This document shows positions 37,688 to 57,060 of a stretch of DNA of 64,000 bases, one piece after another (the stretch's first letter is position 1; each line of letters opens with the position of its first letter). Made by a program: the position numbers and the translations under genes. The DNA is taken from assembly GCF_016902615.1 (NCBI RefSeq), contig NZ_JACJMB010000002.1, positions 1 to 64,000 of the forward strand, written 5' to 3'. This stretch comes from Collinsella tanakaei (GTDB lineage: Bacteria > Actinomycetota > Coriobacteriia > Coriobacteriales > Coriobacteriaceae). A model generated the notes under the pieces. The model did not search any database. It had not been told where the DNA came from and saw nothing but the letters and a program-made list of their open reading frames with translations.

Positions 37688-37710
37688 TTACCCTCCATCT
37701 AGTCTTTCAA

Positions 37711-41476: not shown

Positions 41477-41484
41477 TAGTCTCC

Positions 41485-42702
41485 CTACAGTTTGCATACG
41501 TTCGCGCCGTTGCCCATGACGTTGCGCGGGTCGATGAGGATGCGGTCGCCGAATGCCTCGGGCTTCCCCTTGACCTCGGAGTGCCCCACCATGACGATCA
41601 CCATGTCGAGCCCGTCCAGGAACTCGTCCATGGAGTGCACCTGGCTGGGCACCTCGTCGCGCTCGACCCACGGATCGTAGACCCTCATGGGCGCGCCGCA
41701 GAGGTGCTCCGCCTGTACCTCCAGGAGCTGGAGCGTGGGGCTCTCGCGGACGTCGTCCACGTCCTCCTTGTAGGTGAGGCCGTAGATGCCGACGCGGGAG
41801 GGGTCGTCGATGCCGTGCTCCTCCATGGCCTCGTGCGCGCGACGCAGCACGTACTCCGGCATCGAGAAGTTGGTCTGCAGGGCCAGCCTGATGAAATTCG
41901 CAGTCTCGGGGTAGTCTCCCACGAGGAACCAGGGGTCCACCGGGATGCAGTGGCCACCCACGCCGGGGCCGGGCTGCAGGATGTTGACCCTGGGATGCTT
42001 GTTGGCGATTCGGATGACCTCGTAGACGTCCATGCCGCCGATGCGGCACACCTTGGCGAGCTCGTTGGCGAAGGCGATGTTCACGGCGCGGTACGTGTTC
42101 TCCACGACCTTGGTCATCTCGGCGGTGCGGATGTCGGTGATGGCGATCTCGCCCTGACAGAAGCTGGCGTAGAGCTTCGCCACGCGCTCGCCGACCTCCG
42201 GGTCGTCCGCCCCGATGGTGCGGTTGTTGTGCAGCAATTCATAGACCATATTGCCCGGGATGATGCGCTCCGGGGCGTGGACGAGGGAGACGTCCTGGCG
42301 GTTCGCCTCCTCGAGCAGCGGCCGAACGAAGCGGTCGATGGTGTTCGGGGAGACGGTGGACTCGATGACGAGGACGGCGCCCTCCGGCGCGACCTCGAGA
42401 ACGGTCCTGCACGCGGCGACCACGTAGCTCGGGTCGATCTTCTTGTCCACCTTGTCGTAGGGGGTGGGCACGCTCACGATGTAGATGTCGCACTTCTGGT
42501 ACTCGGTCGTGAACCTGATGCCGGCCCTCACCGCGTCGGCGAACAGCCCGTCGAGCCCCTCCTCCTTGAAGGTGGTCCTCCCGGCGTTGAGCATGGCGAC
42601 CAGATCTTTGTTGTAGTCCGTCCCCGTGACCTCGACCCCGTGCGAGGCCATCATGAGGGCGGTGGGGAGTCCTATGTAGCCGAGACCTATGACGTTGACC
42701 AT
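41485..42702 (-). CDS. wecC: UDP-N-acetyl-D-mannosamine dehydrogenase
   Basis: A 405-residue UDP-sugar dehydrogenase. It has an N-terminal Rossmann motif (VNVIGLGYIGLPTALMMASH), the hexose-dehydrogenase centre with the nucleophile region QPGPGVGGHCIPVDPWFLVG, and a C-terminal domain (GIYGLTYKEDVDDVRESPTL). It oxidises UDP-ManNAc to the uronate using NAD. The ATG at 42702 follows AAAGGTAG. With wecB this implies an acidic amino-sugar in the polymer. Confidence 0.9.
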   Translation of the reverse strand: MVNVIGLGYIGLPTALMMASHGVEVTGTDYNKDLVAMLNAGRTTFKEEGLDGLFADAVRAGIRFTTEYQKCDIYIVSVPTPYDKVDKKIDPSYVVAACRTVLEVAPEGAVLVIESTVSPNTIDRFVRPLLEEANRQDVSLVHAPERIIPGNMVYELLHNNRTIGADDPEVGERVAKLYASFCQGEIAITDIRTAEMTKVVENTYRAVNIAFANELAKVCRIGGMDVYEVIRIANKHPRVNILQPGPGVGGHCIPVDPWFLVGDYPETANFIRLALQTNFSMPEYVLRRAHEAMEEHGIDDPSRVGIYGLTYKEDVDDVRESPTLQLLEVQAEHLCGAPMRVYDPWVERDEVPSQVHSMDEFLDGLDMVIVMVGHSEVKGKPEAFGDRILIDPRNVMGNGANVCKL

Positions 42703-42738
42703 TGTTCTACCTTTCCGTGTTTGCTGATCCAGCATCCG

Positions 42739-43893
42739 TTACGAGAGGCCGAGAGCTGAAGCCAGCTCGTCCTCGTAGAAGGCAATCGACGCTCCGAGGC
42801 TGCCAGGGTCGAACTCTTCGACGACCCGCCGGTACTCGTCCAGCAGCCCCCCGGCGCAGTCGCTGTACCCCATGCCGTAATCGGACATGACGCCGACGTT
42901 CTTCAGGCCCCACCCCTTGTCGAACATCCCGATCACAGGGGTCCCGGCCCGGAGCGACAGGATCGCGGCGTGGAGCCTCATGGACAGCGTCACGTCCATG
43001 GACTTGTAGATGCTCAGCAGCCTGAACGGGTCGTGCTCCTCGACGAGCGCGGCGCCGTCCGGCAAGAGCCCGACCAGCCGCTCCGAGAGGGCGCGGTCCT
43101 TCTTGGTCTGGACGATCACCGTGTAGGAGAGCTCCGGATGCACCCCGGCGAAACCGGCGAACGCGCCGAGGAGCTCGTCCTGGCGCGCCTTCGCGAGTTC
43201 CCCGATGTCGCCGATCGCGGTCCCTCTGACGATCATCGCGGCGCGCGAGCCGGCAGAACGCGGCGCGTCCTCCGGGTCGTCCATGAAGAAGGCCATGTCC
43301 GTCGACTTGGAGAAGGGGAGCTCCGGGTAGAGGAAGCGCAGTCTCTCGAGCGACGCTCCCTCCCGGACGAACACCTCGTCGAAGAGAGCAAGCTTGCGGC
43401 CCAGGAAAGGCTTCCACCTCGGCGCGACCGCCGCAGTCGACTGGGGCAGGCAGACGACCCGCTTGCCCATTCGCCGCGCCATGCTGATGGGATGGAAGAG
43501 CGCCTCGAGGCGGATGGCGTCCGTGGCGGACGCGCAGCGAAGCAGGTTGCCGCCGTTGAAGAGCACGACGTCCGCCTGTCCGACGAGCGCGGAAACCCTC
43601 TCGTCGCCAATGCGCAGCAGCAGCTTCGCCGCGCCCGCGGCGTACTGCGCGGCGACGGCGCCGCATCCCGCTGAACGGTCGAGGGCGAACGTCCCGGGGA
43701 CGACCTCGACCTCCGGGTAGCGCGCATGAACCATGCCGCGGCTCGCCGCGAAGTCGGGGGCCGCCCCGTCGAACCGCGAGACCATCGTCACGTCAGCGCC
43801 GTGGCGGCGCAGGAAGCCGATTGTCCCGAGGCATATGGCGAGATCGCCCGCGTTCTCGGGGCCGTAGAGGTAGAACACGAGCGCGCGCGTCAC
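42739..43893 (-). CDS. Polysaccharide pyruvyl transferase family protein
   Basis: A 384-residue protein of the pyruvyl transferase family (FYLYGPENAGDLAICLGTIG at the start, VVLFNGGNLLRCASATDAIR, CLPQSTAAV, MRLHAAILSLRAGTPVIGMF near the end). It may attach a pyruvate ketal to a sugar of the polymer. The GTG at 43893 overlaps the preceding stop as GTGA; a GTG nine bases upstream is an alternative. Confidence 0.8.
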   Translation of the reverse strand: MTRALVFYLYGPENAGDLAICLGTIGFLRRHGADVTMVSRFDGAAPDFAASRGMVHARYPEVEVVPGTFALDRSAGCGAVAAQYAAGAAKLLLRIGDERVSALVGQADVVLFNGGNLLRCASATDAIRLEALFHPISMARRMGKRVVCLPQSTAAVAPRWKPFLGRKLALFDEVFVREGASLERLRFLYPELPFSKSTDMAFFMDDPEDAPRSAGSRAAMIVRGTAIGDIGELAKARQDELLGAFAGFAGVHPELSYTVIVQTKKDRALSERLVGLLPDGAALVEEHDPFRLLSIYKSMDVTLSMRLHAAILSLRAGTPVIGMFDKGWGLKNVGVMSDYGMGYSDCAGGLLDEYRRVVEEFDPGSLGASIAFYEDELASALGLS

Positions 43894-44912
43894 AGCGACC
43901 ACCCCCGCCCCTCAAGCGCTCGGCGGAAGCCATCGACGACGACGGCTGCGTCGTAGCGCAGGCAGTCCTCGTAATTGAACGCCGCCATCCGGGCGAGCTC
44001 TTCGCGGCGCCCTTCGCATCGAACGAAAAGCCTCGCTAGGGCAGTAGCGTTCCCTGCGGGAAAAAGCCATCCGTTCCTGCCATCGACAACGATCTCCGAG
44101 TTGTAGCAGACGTCGCTCGCAAGTATCGGCAGCCCTGCCGCCATCGCCTCGGCGAGGACTGCGGGAAAACCCTCTGCTTCATATTCGGAGGGAAACACGA
44201 AGCAGTCGTATCCCGCCAGGGTCTCAACAACCTCAGAGTTAAGGACCACGCCCCTGTACGAGATGGGCTCGTCCTCCCCGATCCCTTCCAGAACCGAGCG
44301 GTCGAAGTCCGCCTTTACCGGGCCGTAGATGTCGAGGGAGGCTTCGAGACCGGAGGCGACCGCCTCCCGGAACGCGCTCACCATGGTGCCCACGCCCTTC
44401 TTGTTCCTCACACTCGAAAGGAAGACAAACCGAAGCGAGCCTCTCGCAACGGGGCGCGGGGCCATCCTTCTTGAAGACAGGTCATCGACGAAGTTGGTCA
44501 TCAGATGGACGTTTTCCACCCCGAGAACTCTGAGCCGCTCGACGACTCCCCGCGTCTCCACGGCGACGAGGGACGCATCCCCCATGCAGTCGAGGAGGCT
44601 ATCGCTGCTCCCCGCCTCGTCGGCGACCGTGCCGCCGATGCACACGAGGGCGTACCTGAACGACGGGTCGGCCTTCGCCTTTCGATGGACGATCGGCCAA
44701 AGGACGGCGCGGCCCTTGCGGGACACGGCGATAATCGCCTGATCATCCTTCGACAACACCGTTCTCGCGATCCCGCCCAGCCTGCTTCCCAAGCGGCGGC
44801 TGTACGTGTTCACGAGCGCGCACCCGCCCACAGGGAACAGGTGCTTGAGGGTGATGGAGTTCTTGATCGCCGGCCCACCGGTTTTTGCGACCGGACCTAC
44901 GAAGAGCGTCAT
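43890..44912 (-). CDS. Glycosyltransferase family 4 protein
   Basis: A 340-residue GT-B enzyme (MTLFVGPVAKTGGPAIKNSI at the start; LRFVFLSSVRNKKGVGTMVS; PSEYEAEGFPAVLAEAMAAG, the GT4 EX7E region). ATG 44912 follows AAGGAGGT and overlaps the stop of the heparinase-like gene (TAATGA). It should act in repeat-unit assembly. Sugar specificity cannot be read. Confidence 0.82.
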   Translation of the reverse strand: MTLFVGPVAKTGGPAIKNSITLKHLFPVGGCALVNTYSRRLGSRLGGIARTVLSKDDQAIIAVSRKGRAVLWPIVHRKAKADPSFRYALVCIGGTVADEAGSSDSLLDCMGDASLVAVETRGVVERLRVLGVENVHLMTNFVDDLSSRRMAPRPVARGSLRFVFLSSVRNKKGVGTMVSAFREAVASGLEASLDIYGPVKADFDRSVLEGIGEDEPISYRGVVLNSEVVETLAGYDCFVFPSEYEAEGFPAVLAEAMAAGLPILASDVCYNSEIVVDGRNGWLFPAGNATALARLFVRCEGRREELARMAAFNYEDCLRYDAAVVVDGFRRALEGRGWSL

Positions 44913-46507
44913 TAGGAGACCTCCTTGCCCGCATCGATCGTGTAGGAGACGGACCCCTTGCCCGCCACGACGACGTCCCGGCACTCCTCCAGACGAGACA
45001 GCTGTCGGGAGTACTTGCCTACGCCCCTTGTCATCTCGCATCCGGAAGTTGCCTCGACGGACGGGGATGCGTTCCGAGGGGAATGGATGTGGGATTCAAG
45101 ATGAGCTCCGTCCCCGGACTCGTCCGCGACACGGAGGAGGCCGTCGCAAAGCTCGATGGAGCGGCTGAGGGTCTTGCCGCCCGGAAGCCCGACAGACGCC
45201 AGCACGCTATTGCCGCCGAAGGCGGCGCCCAGCAGTCGGTATCCCCGCCCCACGCGGTGCTCGCCCCAGCACTCGAGCTGCTCCTCGCCGTCCACCACGC
45301 ATGTGTTGTGCGCGGCGGTGGAGCGGAAGTAGGGGCGCAGCCCGCTCTGGTAGGCGTAGGTCCCGGAGTTGACGACCACGGGCTCGCCCCTGTAGGACAG
45401 CTCGAAAGAGAGGCAGTCGCAGTGGGCGTGCCCGAGCATGTAGGAGGGGCCGGGCTCGCCTGCATCGACCATCACGGCCACGTCACCGCCGTAGAGCTTG
45501 TAGTAGCCGGCGTCGGGAAACGCCGTCTTAGTGTCGTCAGCATCCATGCCGAGCAGGCGCGAGCACGCGGCGGCGAGCGGGCAGCACTCCTTGGCCACGC
45601 CGTCGGCGGAGTCGTTGAAGAAGGGGGTCTTCCCCATGCCGCGCTCGAGCGACGCCATGGCGTCGAGCATGGACTTGGCCTTGGGCATGAAGTTGCCGGG
45701 GAGCGCGAAGCCGAGCTGAGTGGAGGCGACGTAGACCCGCAGCATCCCCTCAAGCACGAGTTTGTGGTACATGAGGCTGCGCTCGAAGTGGACGCCGTCG
45801 GGCAGGACCTGCTCGTTGAGCTGCCCCTCCAGGCGGCGCATCACCCTCGCATGGACATCGCTTTCCCCGAACGCGGCGGACGCAATCGCGAGCGTCTTCA
45901 GGTTCTCCCACCAGTGGTTGGCCCGCAGGTGCGTCTCCTGGTTGGCGAGCAGATGTTTGTACTGGCGGTACATGCTCTCGCGCATCTCCGCGAAGAACGC
46001 CCCGTCCCCCTGGAGCGCCCCGCCGAATAGATCGATTGCTATGAGCCAGTTGAGCAGGCGGAGCGAGATTGTGTAGGGATGCCAGGCGTCGCCCTCCGGA
46101 TAGGGGCACGCGAGCATCCACGAGCGGACGAGCCCCTTGTAGCCGTCGATGCAGCGGCCCTCGCCCGTCTCGCGCCAGCGCGCGGCGAGGGCAACGCCCC
46201 ACTCGAAGTAGTGCAGGTTGAAGCTCCAAAGGTGGGACGCGCCGGGAACGTCCCAGGTACCCAGATCGACCTTCCGGCGCTCGTTGATGAGCAGGAACTC
46301 CCCCTTGAACAGCGCCTCGGCGTCGAAGCGAGCGAGGTAGCGCGGGTCGAGGTCTAGCTCGGGGATAGTAATGCGGGGCATGCGCAACGGATGCTCGCCC
46401 GCGAAGGCGCGCTCTGACAGCCGGCGACGGCCTCGCAGCCGCGCGAAGACCATCCCCGTCCTCATGCGCCGTACCGTCCTGAGGTAGAGGAGGGCCTTGC
46501 TAAACAT
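44912..46507 (-). CDS. Heparinase II/III-like polysaccharide enzyme
   Basis: A 531-residue protein with the alpha/alpha toroid followed by the heparinase II/III C-terminal beta domain. Clear pieces: FNLHYFEWGVALAARWRETG, LLANQETHLRANHWWENLKT, MLGHAHCDCLSFELSYRGEP and the RSTAAHNTCVVDGEEQ active region. Such proteins occur in capsule and exopolysaccharide loci, where they may trim, cut or epimerise uronate polymers, consistent with a ManNAcA product. No signal peptide is obvious. The start overlaps the preceding gene by a few bases. Confidence 0.8.
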   Translation of the reverse strand: MFSKALLYLRTVRRMRTGMVFARLRGRRRLSERAFAGEHPLRMPRITIPELDLDPRYLARFDAEALFKGEFLLINERRKVDLGTWDVPGASHLWSFNLHYFEWGVALAARWRETGEGRCIDGYKGLVRSWMLACPYPEGDAWHPYTISLRLLNWLIAIDLFGGALQGDGAFFAEMRESMYRQYKHLLANQETHLRANHWWENLKTLAIASAAFGESDVHARVMRRLEGQLNEQVLPDGVHFERSLMYHKLVLEGMLRVYVASTQLGFALPGNFMPKAKSMLDAMASLERGMGKTPFFNDSADGVAKECCPLAAACSRLLGMDADDTKTAFPDAGYYKLYGGDVAVMVDAGEPGPSYMLGHAHCDCLSFELSYRGEPVVVNSGTYAYQSGLRPYFRSTAAHNTCVVDGEEQLECWGEHRVGRGYRLLGAAFGGNSVLASVGLPGGKTLSRSIELCDGLLRVADESGDGAHLESHIHSPRNASPSVEATSGCEMTRGVGKYSRQLSRLEECRDVVVAGKGSVSYTIDAGKEVS

Positions 46508-47678
46508 GGCGGCCCTCCAGCTCCCCGATCTCCTCGGCGAACGCTTTTGCGAACCGCTGGCGCGAGTGGTTCTCGACAACCCGCGCCGAGGCGGCGGCGC
46601 GCTCCGCATCCGAGAACGGGCGCTCCATCAGCCGGTCAAACGCTGCGAGAAGTGCTACGGGGTCCTCCGGAGCGGCGTGCGCGCCGAGCCCGCATTCGTC
46701 CAGCAGGTCGGCCGCGTCGCCCTCCGCGGCGAGCAGCACTGGGCACCCGCAGGCGAGCGCCTCGTACATCTTCGTCGGGATGCTGTCGCGCAGGCGCGAG
46801 CTCACGAGGGGCACGTAGGAGACGGCCGCATGCTTGAGCACGGTGTAGACGCCCCGGGCGTCCACCTTCCCGCAGAACTCGACGTTGCCGATGCCGTCGT
46901 CATTCGCCCGCGCCTCCAGCTTCGCCCTGTCGGCGCCGTCCCCGAACAGCAGGAACCGCACACTGGGACGCGCCTTGGCGATGCCCAGCAGCGTGCCGAG
47001 CCCCTGGGCGAGCCCGATGTTGCCCACGTAGGCGCACACCGGGCCGTCATCCAGGCGCAGGCGTTCTGCGAGGTCGGGGTCCTCAAGGTTCCCCAGGAAC
47101 GCCTCGTCAATCCCGTTGGGGACGAGGACGACCTTGCCGTTCGGCACGCGCCCTCTCAACTTCTCGACCTTACCCGGGGACACCGAGACCACAAGGTCAG
47201 CAGCGGCATAGGCCTTCCTGGCAACGCGCTCGAAGAAGCGGCCGTAGAGACTGCCCGGCGCGAAGCTGCCCATCTCGTAGGCAACGTCGGGCCATATGTC
47301 TCGCACGTCCAAGACAAGCCTGGCGCGCTTCCTCTTGGCGATCTTCACCGCCGACGACATGAGCAGGAGGGGCGGAGTCGTGCAAACCACGGCATCGAAA
47401 TCCCCGAGCCCCTCTGCCACCTTGACTGCCTCGTGGGCTCCGCCGAAGTTATTGCGCAGGCGGTTCACGAGCGTCTTGTCTACGAGCGGGAAGGTGTCGA
47501 AGAGCGTGACGCACTCCGAGATCTCATAGCCCTCGGGTACTCCGATTAGGCTGTCGGTCGAGGCGAGCACGCGCACATCGTGCCCGGCGTCCTGCAGGGC
47601 TTCCACGAGCACAGCGGTGCGGTTGGCGCACGCCGTCCTGGCGGGGCGGTAGGTGTCCGCGAGGTAGAGGACTCTCAT
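46500..47678 (-). CDS. Glycosyltransferase family 4 protein
   Basis: A 392-residue GT4 enzyme (MRVLYLADTYRPARTACANR; VLVPNGIDEAFLGNLEDPDL; AYVGNIGLAQGLGTLLGIAK; SIPTKMYEALACGCPVLLAA). It resembles WbuB-type transferases that follow the initiating transferase and often add the second sugar. ATG 47678 overlaps the stop of the initiating enzyme and follows GGGGAGGGGG. Confidence 0.85.
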   Translation of the reverse strand: MRVLYLADTYRPARTACANRTAVLVEALQDAGHDVRVLASTDSLIGVPEGYEISECVTLFDTFPLVDKTLVNRLRNNFGGAHEAVKVAEGLGDFDAVVCTTPPLLLMSSAVKIAKRKRARLVLDVRDIWPDVAYEMGSFAPGSLYGRFFERVARKAYAAADLVVSVSPGKVEKLRGRVPNGKVVLVPNGIDEAFLGNLEDPDLAERLRLDDGPVCAYVGNIGLAQGLGTLLGIAKARPSVRFLLFGDGADRAKLEARANDDGIGNVEFCGKVDARGVYTVLKHAAVSYVPLVSSRLRDSIPTKMYEALACGCPVLLAAEGDAADLLDECGLGAHAAPEDPVALLAAFDRLMERPFSDAERAAASARVVENHSRQRFAKAFAEEIGELEGRHV

Positions 47679-48451
47679 CGCGCCCCCTCCCCGGTAGCCA
47701 TCGTGCGCAGCGTCTTCCACACGATGAAGAGGTCCATCGCGACGCTGCGGTTCTCTATGTACTCGATGTCCAGTAGCGCCTTCTCCTTCGGCAGCAACTC
47801 GTATCCGCCCTCAACCTGCGCGAGCCCGGTGATGCCCGGGCGCACAGCCAGGCGCTGCTCCCAGCCGTCGATGCGGTCGCGGAACGCCTCGTGGAAGACG
47901 GGGCGCTCCGGTCTGGGCCCGATGAGCGACATGTCACCCTTGACGACGTTCCAGAACTGCGGGATCTCGTCCAGGCGGCTGTTGCGCAGCTTCCGCCCGA
48001 GCGGCGTCACGCGCGGGTCGTCACCAGCGGCCCACTGGGCGCCGCGCGCCTCGGCGTCGATGTACATCGAGCGGAACTTGTAGACCTTGAAGAGCTTCCC
48101 GCCCCTGCCCACGCGCGTCTGCGCGTAGATGGCAGGGCCGGGATCTTGCCGCTTGATCATGAGTGCAATCGCGCCCATGGGGATTGCAAGCACCACGAGC
48201 GCCGCCGAGCATGCAACGACGTCGAAAGCACGTTTGGCCAAGCGATAAACCGGGCCGCCACCGATACGTTTCAGTTTCGGCAACACCACGGTCCCCTCGT
48301 CGGGCAGCAGCTTCGCGAGCACGTCCGGCGCGATCGGGCACTCCGTAAGGCCAGGCGTATGGCACAGCGCGTTCAGAACCGCCTTCGCCTCGCGCTCGCT
48401 CCCGACCGCGTCCGCCGCCTCCAGCAGCTCCTCGACATCGGACGCGGGCAT
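47675..48451 (-). CDS. Initiating undecaprenyl-phosphate sugar-1-phosphate transferase
   Basis: A polyprenyl-phosphate hexose-1-phosphate transferase of the WcaJ/PglC type, about 258 residues from the chosen start. It has an unusual 65-residue N-terminal segment, one membrane helix (ACSAALVVLAIPMGAIALMI), then the catalytic domain (GRGGKLFKVYKFRSMYIDAE, RKLRNSRLDEIPQFWNVVKG, MSLIGPRPERP, RPGITGLAQVEGG). It links the first sugar to the lipid carrier. Start at 48451 is preferred for its GAGGAG site; the frame stays open to 48616, running through a G10 tract. Confidence 0.87.
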   Translation of the reverse strand: MPASDVEELLEAADAVGSEREAKAVLNALCHTPGLTECPIAPDVLAKLLPDEGTVVLPKLKRIGGGPVYRLAKRAFDVVACSAALVVLAIPMGAIALMIKRQDPGPAIYAQTRVGRGGKLFKVYKFRSMYIDAEARGAQWAAGDDPRVTPLGRKLRNSRLDEIPQFWNVVKGDMSLIGPRPERPVFHEAFRDRIDGWEQRLAVRPGITGLAQVEGGYELLPKEKALLDIEYIENRSVAMDLFIVWKTLRTMATGEGAR

Positions 48452-48623
48452 GCCGCCGCTCCTCATAGCGCAACAGCACGCCCGCGGCGCGCCGACCCTT
48501 CCGTTGTCGCTACCGAGCGCATGAGCGCCCCCCCCCCGCGTTTTCAGCGGGGAAATCCCGTATGTCTTCTGCCATCTCTTCCAAAACACCCGACCCGTGT
48601 GCCCATAACCTGACATGCACGCG
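48452..48623 (-). promoter_or_regulatory. Capsule leader with a ten-G tract and hairpin
   Basis: Between the NusG-like gene and the initiating transferase lies a 172-base leader. Leftward-strand CCCCGC TGAAAAC GCGGGG forms a hairpin whose 3' arm runs into ten consecutive G (C10 at 48528-48537). Specialised NusG proteins of LoaP type act through leader hairpins, so this is a candidate target; tract-length change could alter the hairpin or, if translation starts at 48616, the frame. Confidence 0.55.
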
Positions 48624-49235
48624 CTAGCTTTTGAACGGCACGTCCAGCGGCATCTGCTCCGTGAACGCCCCGTCCCAGCCCAAAGAAACTTCGCAGCGCC
48701 TGCGGTGACGGTCCACCTTGCGGATCCGCGGCTCCTGACCGACCAGGGGGCCCTCCTGCACGTGCAGGACGCCGTCCACGATCACGGCGGTGGAGCTGCG
48801 CAGGACGTGGCCTTCGTCCATGCAGCGCTCGAACCACTCCTGGGCGTCCGGCGCGAGCGGCATCCACGAGCGCCCGTCCGCGCCGGCGAGCTCAACCTGC
48901 ACGGATAGCTTTGAGAGCGCCTTGGAGAGCTCCGCCGGGTCCGCCGACACGGCGAACGCGTAGCCCCGGTAGGCGGTAACGCGCTGCAGCTCCCACACCC
49001 CGGCGCGCTTGAACCAGCGCTCCTTCACGAGCGGGAAGCAGTCCATAAGCAGGTCGCGGGGCAGCGCGCGCAGCAGCTTGGAGCACGTCGCCGCCTCCGA
49101 GCCCTCGCGCACCTTCAGCAGGTACCAGCGCACGCGCCCCTTGGGCACGCGGCGCCCGCAGGGGAGGCTGCCGGCGAGCGTGCCGACGGGGCGGACCGCG
49201 CGCGAGCGCGTGCGCTCTGCAACCATCTCGGCCAT
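48624..49235 (-). CDS. Specialised NusG paralogue (LoaP/UpxY-type antiterminator)
   Basis: A 203-residue NusG-like protein: NGN domain (VRWYLLKVREGSEAATCSKL, VTAYRGYAFAV) and C-terminal KOW-like domain (VQEGPLVGQEPRIRKVDRHR). Operon-specific NusG proteins at the head of capsule or antibiotic operons keep RNA polymerase elongating through long clusters. The neighbours support this: it is first in line before ten polysaccharide genes. GGGAGGG precedes the ATG. Placed directly downstream of the invertible segment. Confidence 0.82.
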   Translation of the reverse strand: MAEMVAERTRSRAVRPVGTLAGSLPCGRRVPKGRVRWYLLKVREGSEAATCSKLLRALPRDLLMDCFPLVKERWFKRAGVWELQRVTAYRGYAFAVSADPAELSKALSKLSVQVELAGADGRSWMPLAPDAQEWFERCMDEGHVLRSSTAVIVDGVLHVQEGPLVGQEPRIRKVDRHRRRCEVSLGWDGAFTEQMPLDVPFKS

Positions 49236-49274
49236 GTTGCCGACCCTCCCTCCATCGGCCCTCCCGCGCCAAGC

Positions 49275-49426
49275 GCGCGAAAAGGTACACCTTTTGAAAC
49301 GGTGGGTTTTCGCAGTCAGACGGCTTGTCGAGATGTGAAGAGCTGGGGTTTTGTCGGAGTAAATGCGGGAGGGGTATGTATAATGGTGATGTTTTTGGAT
49401 GCGTCAAAAGGTGTGCTTTTTGCTGC
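49275..49426. promoter_or_regulatory. Probable invertible promoter segment
   Basis: Two 26-base sites in inverse orientation: left 49275-49300 with dyad AAAAGGT AC ACCTTTT; right 49401-49426 with AAAAGGT GT GCTTTTT. Aligned in inverse orientation they agree at 19 of 26 positions, including the central dinucleotide and nine adjoining bases. Dyads with an asymmetric two-base centre are the form of serine-invertase sites. The about 124 bases between contain TGTATAAT (49377-49384) facing right, and a weaker leftward TTGACG (overlapping the right site) plus TATACA spaced 19. Inversion would turn the strong -10 towards the NusG-like gene. Confidence 0.75.
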
Positions 49427-49471
49427 AGCGGAAAACTGCCATTTACCAGCGCAAACACAGCCGCATGGCCA

Positions 49472-50086
49472 CTATTCCGAAGCCCCTTTCGCCCGGTCCT
49501 CCCGCAGCCACTTGTCGAACGTCGAGATCGACACCTTGAGGCGCGATGCCGCCTCCGACCTGGTGATATGCCCGTCCAGGTACGCCTTCCGCGTGGATTT
49601 GTACGTCCCGGGCCTTCTCTTCTTCGGCCGTCCGAATTTGACCCCGCGCGCCTTAGCCGCCGCGATCCCCTCGGCCTGCCGCTGGTGGATGCTCTCGCGC
49701 TCCACCTGCGCCACGTAGGAGAGCAGCTGCAGCACGATGTCCCCAATCAGCACGCCCGTGATCCCGTCGCGCTCGCGCCGCGTGTCCAGAAGCGGCATGT
49801 CGAGCACCACCACGGAAGCCCCGCGCACCTTGGTGATGTCGCGCCATTGCTCGATGATCTCCTCGTAGCTGCGCCCGAACCGGTCGATCGACTTCACCAC
49901 GAGCACGTCGCCCTCGCGCAGCGCCTCCTTCATGGCGATCCACTGCGGCCGCTCGAAGTCCTTGCCGCTCGCCTTGTCCGCGAAGATGTCCTCCCGAGCC
50001 ACCCCGAACTCCGTGAGCGCGTCCATCTGCCGATCCAGGTTCTGCTCCCGCGTCGACACCCGCGCGTACCCGTACGTCCTCGCCAT
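49472..50086 (-). CDS. Serine recombinase of the Hin/Pin DNA invertase type
   Basis: A 204-residue small serine recombinase. Catalytic Ser10 lies in YGYARVSTREQNLDRQ; FADKASGKDFERPQ and VKSIDRFGRSYEEI follow; the long helix and a C-terminal Hin-type helix-turn-helix (GHITRSEAASRLKVSISTFD) complete it. Length equals DNA invertases, not large integrases. It is 46 bases from the right inverted site, upstream of the NusG-like gene. It is most simply the invertase of that segment; resolvase activity is an alternative. Confidence 0.85.
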   Translation of the reverse strand: MARTYGYARVSTREQNLDRQMDALTEFGVAREDIFADKASGKDFERPQWIAMKEALREGDVLVVKSIDRFGRSYEEIIEQWRDITKVRGASVVVLDMPLLDTRRERDGITGVLIGDIVLQLLSYVAQVERESIHQRQAEGIAAAKARGVKFGRPKKRRPGTYKSTRKAYLDGHITRSEAASRLKVSISTFDKWLREDRAKGASE

Positions 50087-50213
50087 CAAAACCCCGCCTT
50101 CCCGCCCGCGCGTCACCCGCCCCGACCTGCGCGGGCGCAAGCAGGCAGGGGCTCACGCGCCAACGTTAAAAGGCGGTCGCAAACCGCCCGCCATACCCGG
50201 GTTTCCAACGCGC

Positions 50214-50222
50214 TGGTAGAAT
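50214..50222 (+). promoter_or_regulatory. Extended -10 promoter of the HEPN gene
   Basis: TGGTAGAAT is 28 bases upstream of the GTG at 50250, with GGAGG between. Same element as at 25382 and nearly that at 27900, suggesting constitutive expression in the lysogen. Confidence 0.55.
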
Positions 50223-50249
50223 GAGCCGGTAGCGGAACGGAGGCTCCAG

Positions 50250-51254
50250 GTGGAAAACAAAGCCCAAACGACCCAGATCCAAGACGACAACGCAAACATC
50301 GGCGCAGCCGAGGCGCACCCCAAGCCGATGCTCACCGTCGACCAGCAGATAGCCCACATGAAAGCGAAGGGCATAACCTTCGACCTCGTCTCCGAGGCAG
50401 AGGCCGCAGCCCACCTGCGCGCCAAGTGCCAGTTCTTCCGCGTCTACGCCTACCGCCGCAACTTCGACCGCCACGTCGGCGGCGACCGCGACGGGCAGTA
50501 CGTCGGCCTCGGCTTCGGGCATCTCCGCGTCCTGTCGAACCTCGACCGCAAGCTGCGCGACACCCTGCTCCCCATGGCGCTCGACCTGGAGCACTTTGCC
50601 AAGGTGCGCCTGCTCGCCGCAGCCGAAGACGCCGGCGAAGACGGCTACGCCGTCATGCGCGGCTACATGGCGTCCGTCACGGACAAGCAGAGATCCCATC
50701 TGGAGCGCGAGCTCGACCGCCGCGAGGACGATCCCTATGCCGGCGATGTCGTGCGCAAGTACCGGCACGACATGCCGCTCTGGGCGTTCTGCGAGGTCGT
50801 CTCGTTCGGCGCCTTCCTCGGCGTCCTGAGGTTCTGCGCCGACCGCTGGGGCGACGCGGAGCTCTCGGACCTCCATTACCACCTCAAGTGGGTAAAGTCG
50901 ATCCGCAACGCTTCCGCGCACGGCTCATGCGCAGTCAACGACCTCTCCGAGCGCCCGTCGCGCCGCTGGCGAGCGCCCGACGCCGTCACGAGGGCGCTCG
51001 CCTCGTGCGGCGTCCCGAAGCGCTTGCGCGCAAAGCGGCTCAGGAGCCCGCGCATGGCCCAGATGTGCACGCTGCTGTACCTCTACGACCGGACCGTCCC
51101 CGAGGGCACCGTGCGCACCGACCGCGAGCGTGCGCTGGCCGACCTGTTCGGCTACCTTCACGGCGAGGGCGCCTGCCTCCCGAGCGAGAACCCGGCAGTT
51201 TCCTCGCTCACCTTCGCCGAGCGCTTGACACGCGGCCTCGGTCTGATAGACTGA
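50250..51254 (+). CDS. AbiF/AbiD-type (Abi_2) HEPN RNase-like protein
   Basis: A 334-residue Abi_2 family protein. LTVDQQIAHMKAKGITFD opens the domain, YAYRRNF and LDRKLRDTLLPMALDLEHF follow, and the HEPN RNase motif R-x4-H is RNASAH at residues 219-224 (WVKSIRNASAHGS). Such proteins cause abortive infection or act as toxins by cutting RNA. It is read rightward, against the neighbouring genes, with its own promoter, and is followed after 8 bases by tandem structured RNA modules. GTG start with GGAGG. A phage-exclusion role in the lysogen is likely but inferred. Confidence 0.82.
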   Translation: MENKAQTTQIQDDNANIGAAEAHPKPMLTVDQQIAHMKAKGITFDLVSEAEAAAHLRAKCQFFRVYAYRRNFDRHVGGDRDGQYVGLGFGHLRVLSNLDRKLRDTLLPMALDLEHFAKVRLLAAAEDAGEDGYAVMRGYMASVTDKQRSHLERELDRREDDPYAGDVVRKYRHDMPLWAFCEVVSFGAFLGVLRFCADRWGDAELSDLHYHLKWVKSIRNASAHGSCAVNDLSERPSRRWRAPDAVTRALASCGVPKRLRAKRLRSPRMAQMCTLLYLYDRTVPEGTVRTDRERALADLFGYLHGEGACLPSENPAVSSLTFAERLTRGLGLID

Positions 51255-51262
51255 CTCGCATA

Positions 51263-51399
51263 CAGCAAAACCTCCTCGGAGGTTTTTACGGGGCGGGAGT
51301 GCGAAAGCGTTTCTGCCCCGGTTTTCATTTGCCACAGAAAAGCCCTCGGGCTTTGTAAGGCGGGGTCGCGCAAGCGGTTCCGCCTAGTTTTTATTGACG
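51263..51399 (+). ncRNA. Tandem two-hairpin RNA modules, candidate RNA antitoxin
   Basis: Unit A (51263-51332): hairpin AAAACCTC-CTCG-GAGGTTTT, then a 13-pair stem from GGGGCGGGAGTGC to GCGTTTCTGCCCC capped by GAAA, then GGTTTTCATT. Unit B (51333-51399): AAAGCC-CTCG-GGCTTT, then a 12-pair stem AGGCGGGGTCGC/GCGGTTCCGCCT capped by GCAA, then AGTTTTTATT. Both units keep the same caps (CUCG, GNRA) and U-tracts, while stem bases change together. Two plain terminators in series are the alternative. Position just after an AbiF-type gene favours a guide or antitoxin RNA. Confidence 0.7.
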
Positions 51400-51402
51400 A
51401 GA

Positions 51403-51824
51403 GATCCCACACCCCACAGCCACCCGCTGCCCGTCGAGGGCCGCACCGCAGCCCATCCGCCTGCGCTCCGTTGCGCGCACGGCTCGGACCCGCCCCGCCC
51501 TGCGCGGAGAGCTCCACTCACGGCCATGCCCGCCGCTCCGGCTGTGTATGCTCCGCGGCTCGGGCCAGCCAGCTCCGCCTGCGTGTTGCTCCCGGCTCAG
51601 GTCAGCCGGCTGCGCCGTCTGCCCTTCGCGGCGGTCGCACACTCCGGCTGCGCTGTCTGTCCCTCGCGGCGCTGCGCATACACAGCCTCCGCTCTGGGCA
51701 TGGCCTGCCGGGGGTTCGACATGCGCAGGTCGGGTCGGTTCCTCGCGGCGGCGCACACTCCGCTACGGCGGCCGGGCTGCTACGTTTTTCTTCACGTTCG
51801 CGGGTGGCTGTGGGGTGTGGGATC
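51403..51824. repeat. 422-base block with perfect 25-base inverted ends
   Basis: Positions 51403-51427 (GATCCCACACCCCACAGCCA then CCCGC) are exactly complementary to 51800-51824. Between them is a very GC-rich stretch with internal 38-base near-repeats (units starting at 51606 and 51644, CCGGCTGCG core). Open frames on both strands look like composition artefacts. It could be a miniature element, a remnant of the cargo junction, or a long RNA stem-loop. Confidence 0.65.
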
Positions 51825-52192
51825 CGTTCGCGTCTCTCACTGAGGGGGGTGCAGGCGCCTCACGCTGACGCACGGCCGCCGCGGGGCCGAGAGCGCGTCG
51901 CCCACAGGCAGCGATGCCCACGCGCCCGCGAGCGAGCCGGACTCCGTCCCGAGCGACACCATGCCTCGCAAGAGCGCCCCGAAGCCCCTGACGGGGCCTC
52001 GGGGCTTGCCCAACCGGAAGTCTGATACCCGCCGCCCAAGCCGGGAAGCCGGGGCGCGTGCGCCGGGTCGCAGCCGCCGTCCGCACCGGCGCCGCGATCA
52101 TCCGGCCGCGGCTCGGGCACCCGTCCGCCCCCACAGGCGCTTCGTCTGCGCCTCCGCGCCCGCCGGAGCGGCCGCGTCCCTCGCCTCGGACA
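51825..52192. other. Truncated or unrecognised region after the portal gene
   Basis: 368 bases without a confident gene. On the leftward strand the frame begun at 52196 (see next entry) stops at 52098 and is then open again in the same register to a stop at 51837; its last part (LLRGMVSLGTESGSLAGAWA, SLPVGDALSAPRR) has coding-like third-base GC. A head morphogenesis gene would be expected here, so this may be its broken remains beside the cargo insertion. Confidence 0.4.
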
Positions 52193-52196
52193 TCAT
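52098..52196 (-). CDS. 32-residue frame coupled to the portal stop
   Basis: ATG at 52196 overlaps the portal stop as ATGA. The peptide MMSEARDAAAPAGAEAQTKR, then LWGRTGARAAAG, ends at TGA. Translational coupling suggests the true start of the next structural gene, cut short. Whether it is expressed is unknown. Confidence 0.35.
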   Translation of the reverse strand: MMSEARDAAAPAGAEAQTKRLWGRTGARAAAG

Positions 52197-53758
52197 CTCA
52201 TCCGCGCCGGCGCGCCCGTCGCCCGCTCCTCGCGGCGGCGCCCGCGCCCCGGCACCCCGTCCTGGGCTGCGTTGCCGCCATCCGAACCGCCGCGGCTCGC
52301 AGCGGACCCGCCAGACGCCCCTCCGCGCCTCGCAGCGACCTCGCCCTCGCCGTACCACTTGGCTCGGTACTCCCACGGCTCCATGAGCCCCGCCGCGACC
52401 TCGTCCATGTCCTGCCGCTTCTCGGCCGTCGTGTCCGTGATGATGCTGTCGTCGAACGTCACCCTGATCCCGCCCTCGTCGGGCAGCCCCACGCCGATTC
52501 GCCGCTCCACCGCGAGCAGTGCCCGGCAGATCCCTGCGATGGCGCCCTCGAGCGCGCGCTCGTGCCGTCGGATGTTCCTCATCAGCGCCGAGTTGTCGGC
52601 CGACACCTCCGTGGCGGTCTTCACGTAGCCCACGTTCTCGAGGTCGAAGTAGTTGATGCCGAACCCGCAGAGGTCCCCGAGGGTCTGCAGCGCCACGCGG
52701 AACGCCCTCGCCTGGTCCTCGGTGCGGAGCTGCGGCGCGAACTCGTGAATCGTGTCCTCCGTGCTCATGACCTTCCTGAACACGGTGCAGTCAGCCTTGC
52801 CGAACGGGATCGACACGCGCCCGCCCTTGCCGTCGCGCTCCATATCGAACATCACGTCCGAGAGGAACACGCGCATCTTCCCGTTGTCGATCTCCGACAT
52901 CATCGCGTCGTAGCAGAGGTCCACCGCCTGGATCGCGTCCACCGCGTCCGCGAACACGCTCTGCCCGTAGGGCGACATGTCCACGCGCGTGTTGTCGATT
53001 GCCGGCTTCACGATGGCGAACGTAGGCCACACAGACCCCGTGTCGTACATCCGGCACACGCCCTCGGGCTCGACGCGGTTCCCGTCCCGGTCGAAGCAGG
53101 CCGTCACGATCCTATACGTGCCCTCGCCCGCGTCATCGGCAAGGCGAGAAGGACCCGCGCCCGCGCCCTCTCCAAGAGATTCGCCAGGCGAGAAGAATGC
53201 CCCGCCCGCGCCCCTCAGGTGCAGCTGCACCTGGTCGACGGCCCTCCCGCGCCAGAACGCCCGCGTCACGAACGCGCACTCCGTCACGCCCTCCTCGTCC
53301 CACGTGAGCGGCACCACCATGCGAGCGTCGTAGCGCCTCACGCGCACCTCTCGGGACCCCGCATCGACCCACAAAGCCCACGCGCCCGTCCCCAGGCCGA
53401 ACGCCCGCACCACGCACTCCTGCGCCGAGGCGAGAAACCCGGTCCGCGCCATCCACGCCGCGAGCCAGTCCGTGCACGCCTGCTCGGAGCACGCCACCTG
53501 CGTCCTGTCGTTCAGCAGCAGCGACCCCCACTCCCTACACACCCGCATCGCCGGGTGGATCGAGCGCCGGTGCACCTCGTACAGGCGCCCCACGCCGTCC
53601 GTGTCGCGATAGTCGTAGAAGTCCCCGAGCGCCCGCATCCACCTATCCCACGCCCGGATGTGAGGCTCCATGTCCTCCAGCGGCAGCGAGAACCCCAGCC
53701 CCCGCAGCCACGCCCGAACGTGCTCCGGCACCCAATACTCGTCATCCAGCCCCTGCAC
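52193..53758 (-). CDS. Phage portal protein
   Basis: A 521-residue portal of the SPP1-gp6/A118 type (YWVPEHVRAWLRGLGFSLPL, LLNDRTQVACSEQACTDWLA, FGINYFDLENVGYVKTATEV, RNIRRHERALEGAIAGICRA). It forms the dodecameric ring for DNA entry. GTG 53758 was chosen for GGGAGGTG upstream. It ends with a basic low-complexity tail. It is separated from the large terminase by an unusual 890-base gap. Confidence 0.85.
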   Translation of the reverse strand: MQGLDDEYWVPEHVRAWLRGLGFSLPLEDMEPHIRAWDRWMRALGDFYDYRDTDGVGRLYEVHRRSIHPAMRVCREWGSLLLNDRTQVACSEQACTDWLAAWMARTGFLASAQECVVRAFGLGTGAWALWVDAGSREVRVRRYDARMVVPLTWDEEGVTECAFVTRAFWRGRAVDQVQLHLRGAGGAFFSPGESLGEGAGAGPSRLADDAGEGTYRIVTACFDRDGNRVEPEGVCRMYDTGSVWPTFAIVKPAIDNTRVDMSPYGQSVFADAVDAIQAVDLCYDAMMSEIDNGKMRVFLSDVMFDMERDGKGGRVSIPFGKADCTVFRKVMSTEDTIHEFAPQLRTEDQARAFRVALQTLGDLCGFGINYFDLENVGYVKTATEVSADNSALMRNIRRHERALEGAIAGICRALLAVERRIGVGLPDEGGIRVTFDDSIITDTTAEKRQDMDEVAAGLMEPWEYRAKWYGEGEVAARRGGASGGSAASRGGSDGGNAAQDGVPGRGRRREERATGAPARMR

Positions 53759-54649
53759 AGTGCACCTCCCGCGTCGTCTCATCCACTACGCCGAAAGGTA
53801 CGCGCCCGTCCCAAACTCCTCATGCTTCTGGGTCTGCTGCCGTTGCTTTCCCTTCTTCCCCTTATGCCGCTATATCCGCTATCCCATAGAGGGCACGGGC
53901 GTGTTCATGTGCACGCGCGCGAGAGCCCCGTTATTCGGGTGCCCCTCTTATTGCCGCTATCCATGTTCATGTTCCTGCTTATGCGGGCTGCATAAGCAGG
54001 CTCCTCGCGCCCAAGGTCGCTCGTCCGTCGCGCCGCCAAGGTCGGCGCTCTTGTTCCGCAAGCCAGCCCGGCCGCCGCCGCGCGCCGGCGCCCACATCGC
54101 ATCTCCCGGCGGCGCCCGGTCCGTCTTGCTCCACGCTCCGGCAGCCCCGCGAGCGGGTCTGCCTCCGCAGCTACGGGTGCCTGCTGCGCAGTCACCCTCC
54201 GCACCGCTCCGTGCCCGCTTCGCGGTCACTGCGCGGGCTCCGCAAGCCCCCTTGCGGGGCCTTGCTCCGCAGGGGAGGAGAAGAACGAGAAGGACGCCCA
54301 TCCACGCACGTCCACCAGCGCTTTTTCACATTCCGGAGATAAGCTGTTGATAACCCCTCGGCGCTCCGCGCGAACCGTCGCCCCGTGTCCTGAAGCGTTT
54401 CATGCCGAGAAGAACACCCGAAATCCCCCTTGTGGAAAACCCCGGTCACGGTCCGCACGATGGCCCCACGGGGCGGTGGCCGCCCTCGTGTCGTGAATCT
54501 CGCCGGCACCGTCCCGCGCTCACGCACACCCCGTTCGTTGCTCTCCCGTTTTTTAGCTGCCGAGAAGGACGCGCGGCAACCTCTCCCGGCTACCGCGCGC
54601 CCCGCACTCCCTCGCAACCCTCGTTTGCCGAGAAGGACGCCCGCGCACA
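53759..54649. other. 890-base non-coding-like gap between terminase and portal
   Basis: No confident gene. A leftward frame (54192-54653) overlaps the terminase stop as GTGA but has weak codon bias. The region holds four copies of a CTTCTCGGCA/CTTCTCGTTC element, a perfect 11-pair hairpin CCTGCTTATGC/GCATAAGCAGG (53974-54000), GC-rich runs like those at 51428-51799, and three DnaA-box-like sequences (54332, 54345, 54431). It may be regulatory, an origin, or the remains of an invading element. Confidence 0.5.
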
Positions 54650-55927
54650 TCACCCTCGCAGCACGTCGTCCATCATCGCGTAGCGCACCGCGTCGATCGA
54701 GTGGTCGTTGCCGTCCGGGATGTCGTCCACCCACGTCCCGTCGCGGTCGCGGTCGTACTCCTTGAGCCGGAACTCCTCGTAGGCGAGCGGGCACCGCTCC
54801 GGGTCGATGCGGATCTCGCGCAAGCCCGCCAGCCACTCGTACGACAGCCGCCGCATGTTGGACTTCCTCGCCGGCCGAACGCGAAGCCCCGCCTCGCGCC
54901 GCCACACGGCCATGCTCTGCTTGCCGTCCGGAGTGTCGTCGCACCATATCAGCTCGTCGTGGAGGTGGGCGTCCTCGCCCGGAGCGTCCGCGTAGGTGAG
55001 CGCATCGGTCACCAACGCCGCCGTCTCGGCAGGCGTCTTGCGGTTCGCCGACAGCTCGCCGAAGATCGTGAGCCGCCGCTCGCCGGGCTCCCAGCCGCAG
55101 CGCACGAACCGCCACGGGTCCGGGAACCACCCCCAGTCCACGCCGCAGCGCGTGCGCGAGAAGCCCCGCACCCGCGCATCGGACAGCCGCACCGAGACGA
55201 CGTTGTTGAACACCGAGCCGCCGGTGCCCGTCACCTCGCCCAGGTACTCGCTCCGCCAAGCACGCTCGTCCACCGAGCGCAGGTACTCCGCCTCCTCGAC
55301 AAAGGGGGCGCCCAGCCACTCGGGGTGGCTCTCGACGACGTCGAGGTAGCTCGACTGCCGAACCAGCGTGTCCGCCCGCCGCTCGCGCTCCAGCTCCTCG
55401 CGGTTCACCCAGCTCCAGAGCGTCCGGGGAGGGTTGTAGGAGTAGAAGATCCAGAAGTCGTCCCCGCCGCGCCTGAGCGAGTTCAGGATCGAGCGCACCG
55501 CGTCGATGCCGTCGAACTGGTCGAGCTCCTCGAACCACACCACGGCGACGTACCCGCGCGAGAACTTCACGCCCTTGAGCTTCAAGGGGTCGTCCGCCCC
55601 GCGGAACACGATGCGCTGCCCGGTCGGCAGGTACGTGAGCTCCATCGGAGAGATCCGCGCCCGGAACCACTGGTCGAGCCCCAGCGCCGAGACCGCCCAC
55701 GTCACCTGCTGGAACACCGAGTCGCGCAGCGTGTTGCTGAACCGCCGCACCACCACCGCGTTCGCCTCCGGGTGCGCCAGGAGGAGAAGGATGATGCACA
55801 CGCTGATGAAGCTCGACTTCGTGGAGCCGCGCCCGCCGTGGAGCCAGTAGTGCGTGTGCCCGTGGGCCATCACGTCGCCGAGCACGTCGTGGAACTTGGG
55901 GATTACGAGCGCCGATGCGTCAACCAT
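54650..55927 (-). CDS. Terminase large subunit
   Basis: A 425-residue packaging motor. Walker A is HGGRGSTKSSF near residue 32; Walker B and the adjacent acidic pair are VAVVWFEELDQFDG; the C-terminal nuclease domain shows CGVDWGWFPD and ends DDIPDGNDHSIDAVRYAMMD. It matches the PBSX/SPP1 (terminase_3) group. It overlaps the small subunit by eight bases. Confidence 0.9.
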   Translation of the reverse strand: MVDASALVIPKFHDVLGDVMAHGHTHYWLHGGRGSTKSSFISVCIILLLLAHPEANAVVVRRFSNTLRDSVFQQVTWAVSALGLDQWFRARISPMELTYLPTGQRIVFRGADDPLKLKGVKFSRGYVAVVWFEELDQFDGIDAVRSILNSLRRGGDDFWIFYSYNPPRTLWSWVNREELERERRADTLVRQSSYLDVVESHPEWLGAPFVEEAEYLRSVDERAWRSEYLGEVTGTGGSVFNNVVSVRLSDARVRGFSRTRCGVDWGWFPDPWRFVRCGWEPGERRLTIFGELSANRKTPAETAALVTDALTYADAPGEDAHLHDELIWCDDTPDGKQSMAVWRREAGLRVRPARKSNMRRLSYEWLAGLREIRIDPERCPLAYEEFRLKEYDRDRDGTWVDDIPDGNDHSIDAVRYAMMDDVLRG

Positions 55928-56342
55928 TCGAGCCGCCCTCGTCGAATCCCGGCAACTTCTCCTGCACCGGCTGTGCCACCACGCCGAGCACGATCCTCGG
56001 CGCGGCGTCCGCCTTCGCGTCGTCGCGCTGGCGCTCGGCCTTGCCGAACTCGTCGGGGTACTTGCGCTCCAGGAGCCACGCGGCGGCCGTCCAATACTGG
56101 TTGCGCGCGAGCGCCGCCGAGCGGATCGTCGTGAGCAGCGTCCGCTTGAACGCCGATTCTTCCTTTTTTAGTCCCTCGCTTAACTCGCGCTGCAGCCTGT
56201 TCTTGGGGTCGCCGATCCACCGGTAGAAAGTGGACTCGTGGATTCCCAGCGCGCAGACGATGTCGCCGTTGGAGAGCCCGTCCGCCTTGAGGCGGATCGC
56301 CTCGTCCACCATCTCCTGCGTCAGCTTCGCCCGCCTCGCCAT
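55920..56342 (-). CDS. Terminase small subunit
   Basis: A 140-residue DNA-binding subunit with an N-terminal helix-turn-helix (LTQEMVDEAIRLKADGLSNG, DIVCALGIHESTFYRWIGDP) and a helical assembly region. It recognises the packaging site. First gene of the leftward head operon; overlap with the large subunit supports the pair. Confidence 0.82.
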   Translation of the reverse strand: MARRAKLTQEMVDEAIRLKADGLSNGDIVCALGIHESTFYRWIGDPKNRLQRELSEGLKKEESAFKRTLLTTIRSAALARNQYWTAAAWLLERKYPDEFGKAERQRDDAKADAAPRIVLGVVAQPVQEKLPGFDEGGSNG

Positions 56343-56551
56343 GCAATCACCCCCGTGAGCGTCATAGATTCCCTCACGGTGGATTCTCAGAGCCTGTCAC
56401 AAGGAATAGAATGGATGCGCGCCAATAGCTTGTTAGCGCCATGATGGAGTTTGGCCTCTGCCTGTTTGAGCTTGCTCAAGGAGGTGGTTGGATGAGCGGA
56501 TTTGTATCTGCCCTGTCAAGCTTTTGCTCACTGGTGGCTACGTGGCTAGGC

Positions 56552-56625
56552 GGCGGTGGCCGAGCGCTCGTCATGGACTATCAAGGTTCTAGCCACATCT
56601 GGTTCGAATCCAGACACCGCCGCCA
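56552..56625 (+). tRNA. tRNA-like sequence with atypical anticodon arm and encoded CCA
   Basis: A perfect seven-pair acceptor (GGCGGTG with CACCGCC), a T arm TCTGG-TTCGAAT-CCAGA, discriminator G and CCA are clear. The rest is short (71 bases before CCA). The D region CGAG-CG-CTCG lacks a normal loop, and the best anticodon stem GGAC/GTTC encloses TATCAAG, which would expose TCA but with A at position 33. Either a degenerate tRNA, a phage tRNA with unusual arms, or a tRNA mimic. Isotype not assigned. Confidence 0.5.
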
Positions 56626-56627
56626 GA

Positions 56628-57041
56628 TTACTTCTTCCGCTCCCGCTTACCCTTCAGCCCGTACTTCCGGCACAGCCGCGAGTTGCGTTGCCGCATCATG
56701 TCCCGTTCGCGCCGCACGTCGTCGATCTCGGACGCCTCCTCGGCGGCAACCCGCTCGCGCTCCAGCTGCTCGTTGAAGGCGCGCTCCTGCGCCAGGTGGT
56801 ACTCCTCGGTGCACCGCCGGCACATGCCGGTCTGCCGATTGATCTTAACGCCTACCGCGCCGCAGGAGGGGCACACCGTCTGCACCGCCAGTGAGCAGTG
56901 GATACGGCTCGCGCGCATCTCCACCGCCCGCACAGAGTGGCGCACGCCGCAGCGCCGCTCGATCTCGGTGGCGGCGAACGCCGCGCCCCTGAAGCTCACC
57001 TCGCGCAGGACGTCGTCCTGCTCCTCCGTCCACCAGCTCAT
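56628..57041 (-). CDS. SANT/Myb-like and zinc-ribbon DNA-binding protein
   Basis: A 137-residue protein: N-terminal helical motif like SANT/phage Gcr-type regulators (MSWWTEEQDDVLREVSFRGA, then CGVRHSVRAVEMRASRI), a zinc ribbon CPSCGAVGV...MCRRC, and a basic helical tail ending GKRERKK. Probably binds DNA near the repeated GTCTCAA sites just upstream of it. A late-gene regulator is plausible. ATG 57041 follows GAGGGGG. Confidence 0.6.
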   Translation of the reverse strand: MSWWTEEQDDVLREVSFRGAAFAATEIERRCGVRHSVRAVEMRASRIHCSLAVQTVCPSCGAVGVKINRQTGMCRRCTEEYHLAQERAFNEQLERERVAAEEASEIDDVRRERDMMRQRNSRLCRKYGLKGKRERKK

Positions 57042-57060
57042 CTTCGCCCCCTCCCGGCCC

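Follow-up and report, generated by a model that had tools for sequence, protein, structure and literature searches.

A candidate phase-variable capsule cassette with an invertible promoter and its own serine invertase in a Collinsella prophage

Introduction

In the PS loci of Bacteroides fragilis, short inverted repeats bound a promoter that is turned by a small serine invertase, and a NusG paralogue leads the operon, with Mpi acting in trans as the distant master invertase (PMC10939037, PMC4747536). In Eggerthella lenta, a member of the Coriobacteriia, reversible inversions at capsule clusters with LoaP change both the capsule and phage sensitivity, but these span ~2 Mb between GATAAGCGCGGTTATG repeats, with no adjoining recombinase and no promoter flip; the 2026 preprint itself sets such megabase inversions near capsule clusters and loaP apart from short promoter inversions (PMC13174815). 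The LoaP of Bacillus velezensis, which serves antibiotic operons for which no invertible promoter is described, binds a UNCG-type leader hairpin that lies between promoter and operon and is required for antitermination (PMC12691694). Serine recombinases are also found in prophages, as in the cryptic E. coli prophages with PinQ/e14, where a flip of 1.8 kb of prophage DNA gives a chimeric tail-fibre protein and alters phage adsorption, with neither promoter nor polysaccharide involved (PMC12529663).

The window, that is, the whole 64,000-nucleotide stretch analyzed here, belongs to contig C2 of a Collinsella genome of 2.45 Mb. The initial annotation had read a short segment in it as an invertible promoter that switches a prophage capsule operon by the logic of Bacteroides. 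The invertible promoter, the serine invertase, the NusG-family first gene and the capsule operon of that logic held up, while UpxY had to be replaced by a LoaP-like protein; the switch does lie inside a prophage but is not confined there, since it also occurs on Collinsella chromosomes. The best explanation of the locus, and in our judgment a highly probable one, is a phage-borne, phase-variable capsule cassette that is flipped by its own invertase, so that a promoter is turned ON or OFF and the operon is read with the aid of LoaP antitermination.

Results

Architecture of the switch

The elements of the switch are as follows.
49280..49295, + strand: proximal recombination site AAAAGGT-AC-ACCTTTT, central dinucleotide at 49287-49288, kept upstream of all close loaP homologues.
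49288..49413, no strand: candidate invertible segment, 126 bases centre to centre, in the window with its promoter away from loaP (OFF).
49379..49384, + strand: -10 hexamer TATAAT within TGTATAAT (49377-49384), 21 bases from the segment edge and pointing away from the capsule genes.
49406..49421, - strand: distal recombination site, read on that strand as AAAAAGC-AC-ACCTTTT, central dinucleotide at 49413-49414.

The two dyads flank the segment with TATAAT in inverted arrangement. As the initial annotation had counted, the imperfect dyads of 26 bases in which they lie (49275-49300 and 49401-49426) have 19 of 26 positions in common when one is inverted; the conserved core is 16 to 18 bases, with 7-base arms around a central AC or GT, and is identical at 16 of 18 positions, two positions separating the distal site of the window from its proximal partner. 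Common to the two sites is the 16-base dyad AAAARGT-AC-ACCTTTT, whose central AC is asymmetric. Serine invertases such as Hin and Gin cut their crossover sites at the central dinucleotide, and the asymmetric AC fits the arrangement expected of them. Taken alone, the pair in the window is marginal against chance, because 16 of 20 matching positions were reached in 1 of 200 dinucleotide shuffles, and what makes it convincing is that every close homologue examined has a site pair in the same position. Such a pair is present at all 15 homologous loci whose LoaP is 53-93% identical and at 18 of 19 more distant Collinsella loci, the other one (L024) having the proximal site only. The two sites also covary, with AAAAGGTACAGGTTTT at each end in L054 and AAAACGTACACGTTTT at each end in L056, and the central AC is retained in nearly all loci.

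An exact TATAAT stands 18-24 bases inside one edge at 31 of 35 loci (a count that includes L018, where an insertion enlarges the segment), and most of the others have a near match, while only ~4% of shuffled segments contain the hexamer anywhere. The promoter scan found no good -35 at 16-18 bases from TATAAT in the window switch, and the promoter may therefore need an activator or another feature. The hexamer points to the right, away from the capsule genes, as had been proposed, and inversion in silico places its end 81 bases before the ATG of the NusG-like gene (about 80 had been predicted). A weak promoter match (9/12) is directed toward loaP in the window orientation, so the OFF state may leak, and because no terminator-like site was found in the window sequence between the codirectional invertase and loaP genes, read-through from the former could give low loaP expression in both states. 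The same missing terminator, together with an OFF-state -10 that aims at the 3' end of the invertase gene and a leader G tract that varies in length among relatives, could be accommodated by a scheme in which the promoter produces an antisense transcript or a small RNA across the invertase gene and capsule control lies elsewhere, for example in read-through plus the LoaP leader or in slippage at the G tract. Such a scheme is very unlikely given that the ON-state -10 keeps a fixed short distance before loaP in prophage and chromosomal loci.

Two further elements accompany the switch. In most loci, a GCAGGTAGA-like motif is conserved just beyond the distal site, at a distance of 25-40 bases; its window copy is GCTGGTAAA at ~49444-49452, and it is a possible accessory or boundary element. 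Inside the segment, an imperfect dyad, TGTAAAGA...TCTTCACA, adjoins the -10 and is common to several relatives (L044-L049); it is a possible operator that travels with the promoter.

The serine invertase

The switch is bordered on its right by the recombinase gene.
49472..50086, - strand: small serine recombinase, 204 aa, candidate invertase (Pfam PF00239, E 7.7e-32; PHROG DNA invertase, E 2.8e-56).

Its stop codon and the right 26-mer are separated by 45 bases, and the left 26-mer and the start of the NusG-like gene by 39, each within a base of the distances first given (46 and 40). The protein, which had been described as a serine recombinase of Hin/Pin size, contains the motifs YGYARVST and IDRFGRS and, over ~200 aa, consists of a resolvase catalytic domain with the YxRVS serine motif and a C-terminal HTH-like tail, as do small serine DNA invertases of the Hin/Gin/Mpi type. 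The Mpi model, the best NCBIfam equivalog, gives 52.7 bits against a cutoff of 272, and the enzyme is, as judged from its sequence, Mpi-like rather than Mpi. Since the deep branches of the invertase alignment were not resolved, coevolution of site and invertase was assessed from the site sequences only.

Orientation of the segment in related loci

Relatives of LoaP were sought in 100 related genomes and in GTDB contigs. The closest, with a LoaP 93% identical to that of the window, is on the metagenome-assembled contig L055, in which the flanks match those of the window on both sides while the segment is reversed, with an identity of 0.91 when flipped and 0.34 when aligned directly; the existence of the inverted form, on which the first reading of the locus depended, is thus borne out. 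In BLAST alignments the flank matches stop inside the sites and the reversed match runs from site to site, all on one contig with flanks collinear to those of the window, and when the window is flipped in silico from one site centre to the other, the regional identity to L055 rises from 0.892 to 0.955. TATAAT faces loaP in L055 (ON) and away from it in the window (OFF). Among the loci whose LoaP is 53-65% identical, L051, L052, L053, L056 and L059 are ON and L044-L050 and L064 are OFF, as probably is L054. L055 and L059 are metagenome assemblies binned as Atopobiaceae, with uncertain hosts; the evidence on orientation lies within single contigs, and it is repeated in near-complete genomes with the chromosomal form described below.

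In 19 further Collinsella genomes, a LoaP 43-49% identical to that of the window heads sugar-transferase loci and is preceded by the same switch, with the sites AAAAGGTACAGGTTTT and AAAACCTGTACTTTTG 116 bases apart start to start. These loci appear to be chromosomal because their 3.5-kb stretches give no phage-gene matches and because they recur across the genus. The segment is found in both orientations here also. Between L016 and L017, for example, flank identity is 97%, and the segments reach 99% when inverted and 50% when aligned directly; over 17 loci, the mean identity of pairs with opposite labels is 0.82 with one member inverted, against 0.47 in direct alignment. When placed on a tree built from the loaP flanks, orientation requires 6 changes (bootstrap 5-6) and does not cluster, as expected of a reversible switch. 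Thus inverted sites bound a promoter-like sequence, and both orientations occur between the same flanks across related genomes; from the opposite orientations in L055 and the window and across the chromosomal loci, we infer that the element is invertible in nature.

It might be argued that the segment has rarely been inverted in evolution and is a static promoter region, the invertase being used for dimer resolution or tail-fibre variation, and the several relatives that have a switch without an adjoining invertase would agree with this. We consider it very unlikely because orientation differs between loci whose flanks are 95-97% identical and is scattered on the tree, because the breakpoints lie within the sites, and because all 23 genomes searched carry an invertase homologue. 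In the window genome, moreover, there is no second site pair at up to 2 mismatches, and the sole invertase homologue stands beside the switch.

The assumption that the invertase is necessarily adjacent to its switch was rejected, since the chromosomal switches have theirs hundreds of kilobases off, as in G043, with loaP at 471 kb and its invertase at 1104 kb. Where Collinsella has the switch on the chromosome, the distant protein is ~62% identical to that of the window and nearly invariant across species, and this invariance suggests a trans-acting master invertase comparable to Mpi. Action in trans would therefore be normal in this family of enzymes, and a chromosomal or other recombinase might likewise invert the window switch and make the phage gene dispensable. 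That is quite improbable because the phage gene is the only homologue in the window genome at E<=1e-10.

Some observations on individual genomes are added here. Collinsella ihumii GD8, of the same genus as the window genome, has three loaP switches, and an invertase adjoins two of them. At L018, an insertion of ~300 bases enlarges the invertible segment and leaves the promoter end toward loaP intact. In the 3.4-Mb, single-contig genome of an order-level relative, a LoaP-like gene (38%) and an invertase (66%) lie together with the site pair AAAATGTAGACTTTTT/AAAAAGTCTACGTTTT (L031, positions 500-1700), by which the switch reaches beyond the family of Collinsella. In G043, G014, G007, G020 and others, AAAAGGGACAGGTTTA or a close variant is scattered through each genome in ~20-35 copies, one of them ~30 bases from the distant invertase gene; these copies look like a REP-type repeat or a regulator motif.

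The LoaP-like protein and its leader

On the other side of the switch are the first gene of the operon and the leader that follows it.
48624..49235, - strand: LoaP-like NusG paralogue, 203 aa, first operon gene (NCBIfam antiterm_LoaP, E 1.5e-22, subthreshold).
48452..48623, - strand: leader between loaP and the first sugar-transferase gene, with two adjacent hairpins at ~48521-48563 and a 10-G tract; candidate LoaP RNA target.

The protein has no Pfam match at E 0.001, and with the LoaP model NF033641 it scores 80.5 bits, short of the curated cutoff of 125 bits; by sequence it is a LoaP-like relative and no formal member of LoaP. Membership in UpxY was rejected, LoaP being its only NCBIfam match. 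Its AlphaFold (AF2) model (pLDDT 84.6) has the NGN + KOW fold of NusG-type proteins, and the best structural match is the NusG-RNA complex 8f5g (TM 0.78), of which all top three PDB matches are chains.

The prophage relatives retain two adjacent hairpins between loaP and the sugar-transferase gene. Two hairpins were predicted in 5 of 6 folded leaders, including that of the window, with arms that differ in sequence and yet pair, such as GCGC-UCAU-GCGC in the window and GGCA-CUCGA-UGCC in L049; L047 folds otherwise, and none are obvious in the chromosomal loci. By analogy with Bacillus, these hairpins might serve the same role as the one bound by its LoaP, and their resemblance to the UNCG type is putative. 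The G tract of the leader, a run of 10 G on the - strand at 48528-48537, is matched by runs of 5-11 G in the leaders of L012-L030, with lengths varying among related genomes, and is possibly a second, slippage-based layer of phase variation.

The capsule operon and the prophage cargo slot

The remainder of the cassette and the prophage around it comprise the following.
47675..48451, - strand: undecaprenyl-phosphate sugar transferase of WbaP/WcaJ type (PF02397, E 5.8e-63), start picked by domain comparison.
36584..47720, - strand: remaining capsule operon, with GT4, heparinase-like, GT4, pyruvyl transferase, nucleotide-sugar dehydrogenase, glycosyltransferase, Wzy-like, flippase-like and UDP-GlcNAc 2-epimerase genes.
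50250..51254, + strand: Abi-like gene (AbiD model) between portal and invertase (PHROG 2158, E 6.6e-24; PADLOC AbiD, E 3.5e-20).
25560..63124, no strand: prophage of 37.6 kb, ends approximate, both inside one HTH regulator gene.
Phage genes within it: terminase, 54650-55927; portal, 52193-53782; scaffold, 35657-36244; capsid, 34637-35653; integrase, 61684-63117.

The flippase-like membrane protein gave no family match. Repressor-like, primase, tail and endolysin genes complete a set that, with an interrupted attachment gene, is that of a temperate tailed phage. The HTH regulator gene starts at ~25.4-25.56 kb and continues from 63.12 kb, and intact copies 95-97% identical are present in G008 and G023. 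Because both prophage ends split this one gene, the cassette is inside the prophage and not beside it, which agrees with the location first proposed. The ends were set by the split gene, and no exact direct repeat was found at them.

Four prophages (the window, C. ihumii contig C15, and the L055 and L059 contigs) have structural genes that are mostly 72-99% identical and carry, in a shared slot flanked by portal and scaffold, a unit of Abi-like gene, invertase, nearly identical switch and loaP, while the capsule operons behind the unit differ, with sugar transferases 36-41% identical and other genes unlike in kind. In three IMG/VR prophages of other genomes, the portal is followed by the Abi-like gene and the invertase, directly after which the sequence ends. 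In other relatives the slot is occupied by restriction-modification genes of type III or type II and by further defence-like genes (L128, L130, L131 and G101 contig 14, L079-L080) or, in Eggerthella phage PMBT5, by a Lar-type restriction-alleviation gene. On L137, an IMG/VR phage contig (6369-14369), an invertase (67%) and an ON switch precede JAB, ThiF and FtsK/HerA-like genes, with loaP absent at the expected place, which hints at phase-variable defence genes. The scan of viral_contigs with the loaP alignment gave no relatives and the search for the site-pair pattern gave none, one likely reason being that at least 3 IMG/VR predictions of this family end just after the invertase gene, and the L137 pair deviates from the exact pattern; INPHARED phages also contained no LoaP relative. 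From these gene contents, the slot resembles a hotspot for cargo that concerns the cell surface and defence, with the capsule locus as one of several exchangeable cargoes, which refines the initial annotation. It seems reasonably likely that the head module of one lineage of Coriobacteriia phages includes a cargo slot with exchangeable coat or defence operons, some of them under a portable invertase and invertible promoter, and that lysogens of these phages make switchable phage-encoded capsules.

Discussion

The working of the cassette can be considered as follows. A temperate Collinsella siphophage would carry the phase-variable capsule cassette, and its small serine invertase, so assigned by its domain and motifs, would exchange the two inverted 16-18-base sites, ~106 bases apart, and flip the intervening segment. 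In the ON state, the promoter 21 bases inside the edge, if active, would read into loaP and the capsule operon; in the OFF state, as in the window, it would read in the opposite direction, toward the invertase gene and its 3' end. LoaP would be made first in the ON state and probably load on a hairpin of the loaP-wbaP leader, so that polymerase could read the 12-kb operon, whose product would be a surface polysaccharide that alters phage susceptibility or host interaction. The host thus probably gains from the phage a new surface coat that it can switch on and off. If this is true, a phage gives its host a complete switchable capsule, which may block competing phages and change the encounter between the bacterium and its host, and the coding for capsules is swapped between phages like a cassette. 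Control of capsules by invertible promoters would also extend to Collinsella, a major gut genus outside Bacteroides, on the chromosome as well as in phages.

No published invertible promoter of Collinsella was found in the open literature searched, and earlier genome-wide catalogues of invertons in subscription journals may list Collinsella sites, so the novelty of the switch is provisional. Among the described systems, PinQ/e14 shares with this locus a prophage serine recombinase that flips prophage DNA and differs in what is flipped, a protein-coding stretch there and a promoter for polysaccharide genes here. The LoaP of B. velezensis is a NusG paralogue of the same kind, and its leader hairpin has a putative structural match in those described here. 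E. lenta has in common with Collinsella the class, LoaP and reversible inversion, but its inversions are of another scale and mechanism, and its 16-bp repeat, GATAAGCGCGGTTATG, was absent from the two order-level relatives searched. The PS loci of B. fragilis resemble the present locus in the bounded promoter, the small serine invertase and the NusG paralogue at the head of the operon, and the chromosomal Collinsella loci appear to use, like those under Mpi, one distant invertase in trans. The Collinsella locus is unlike them in belonging to Actinomycetota, in having a LoaP-like protein in place of UpxY and another site sequence, and in that the whole unit, with its own invertase, is in a phage; what would be new relative to Mpi-dependent capsule switching in Bacteroides is therefore a switch that is phage-borne, actinomycetotal and coupled to LoaP.
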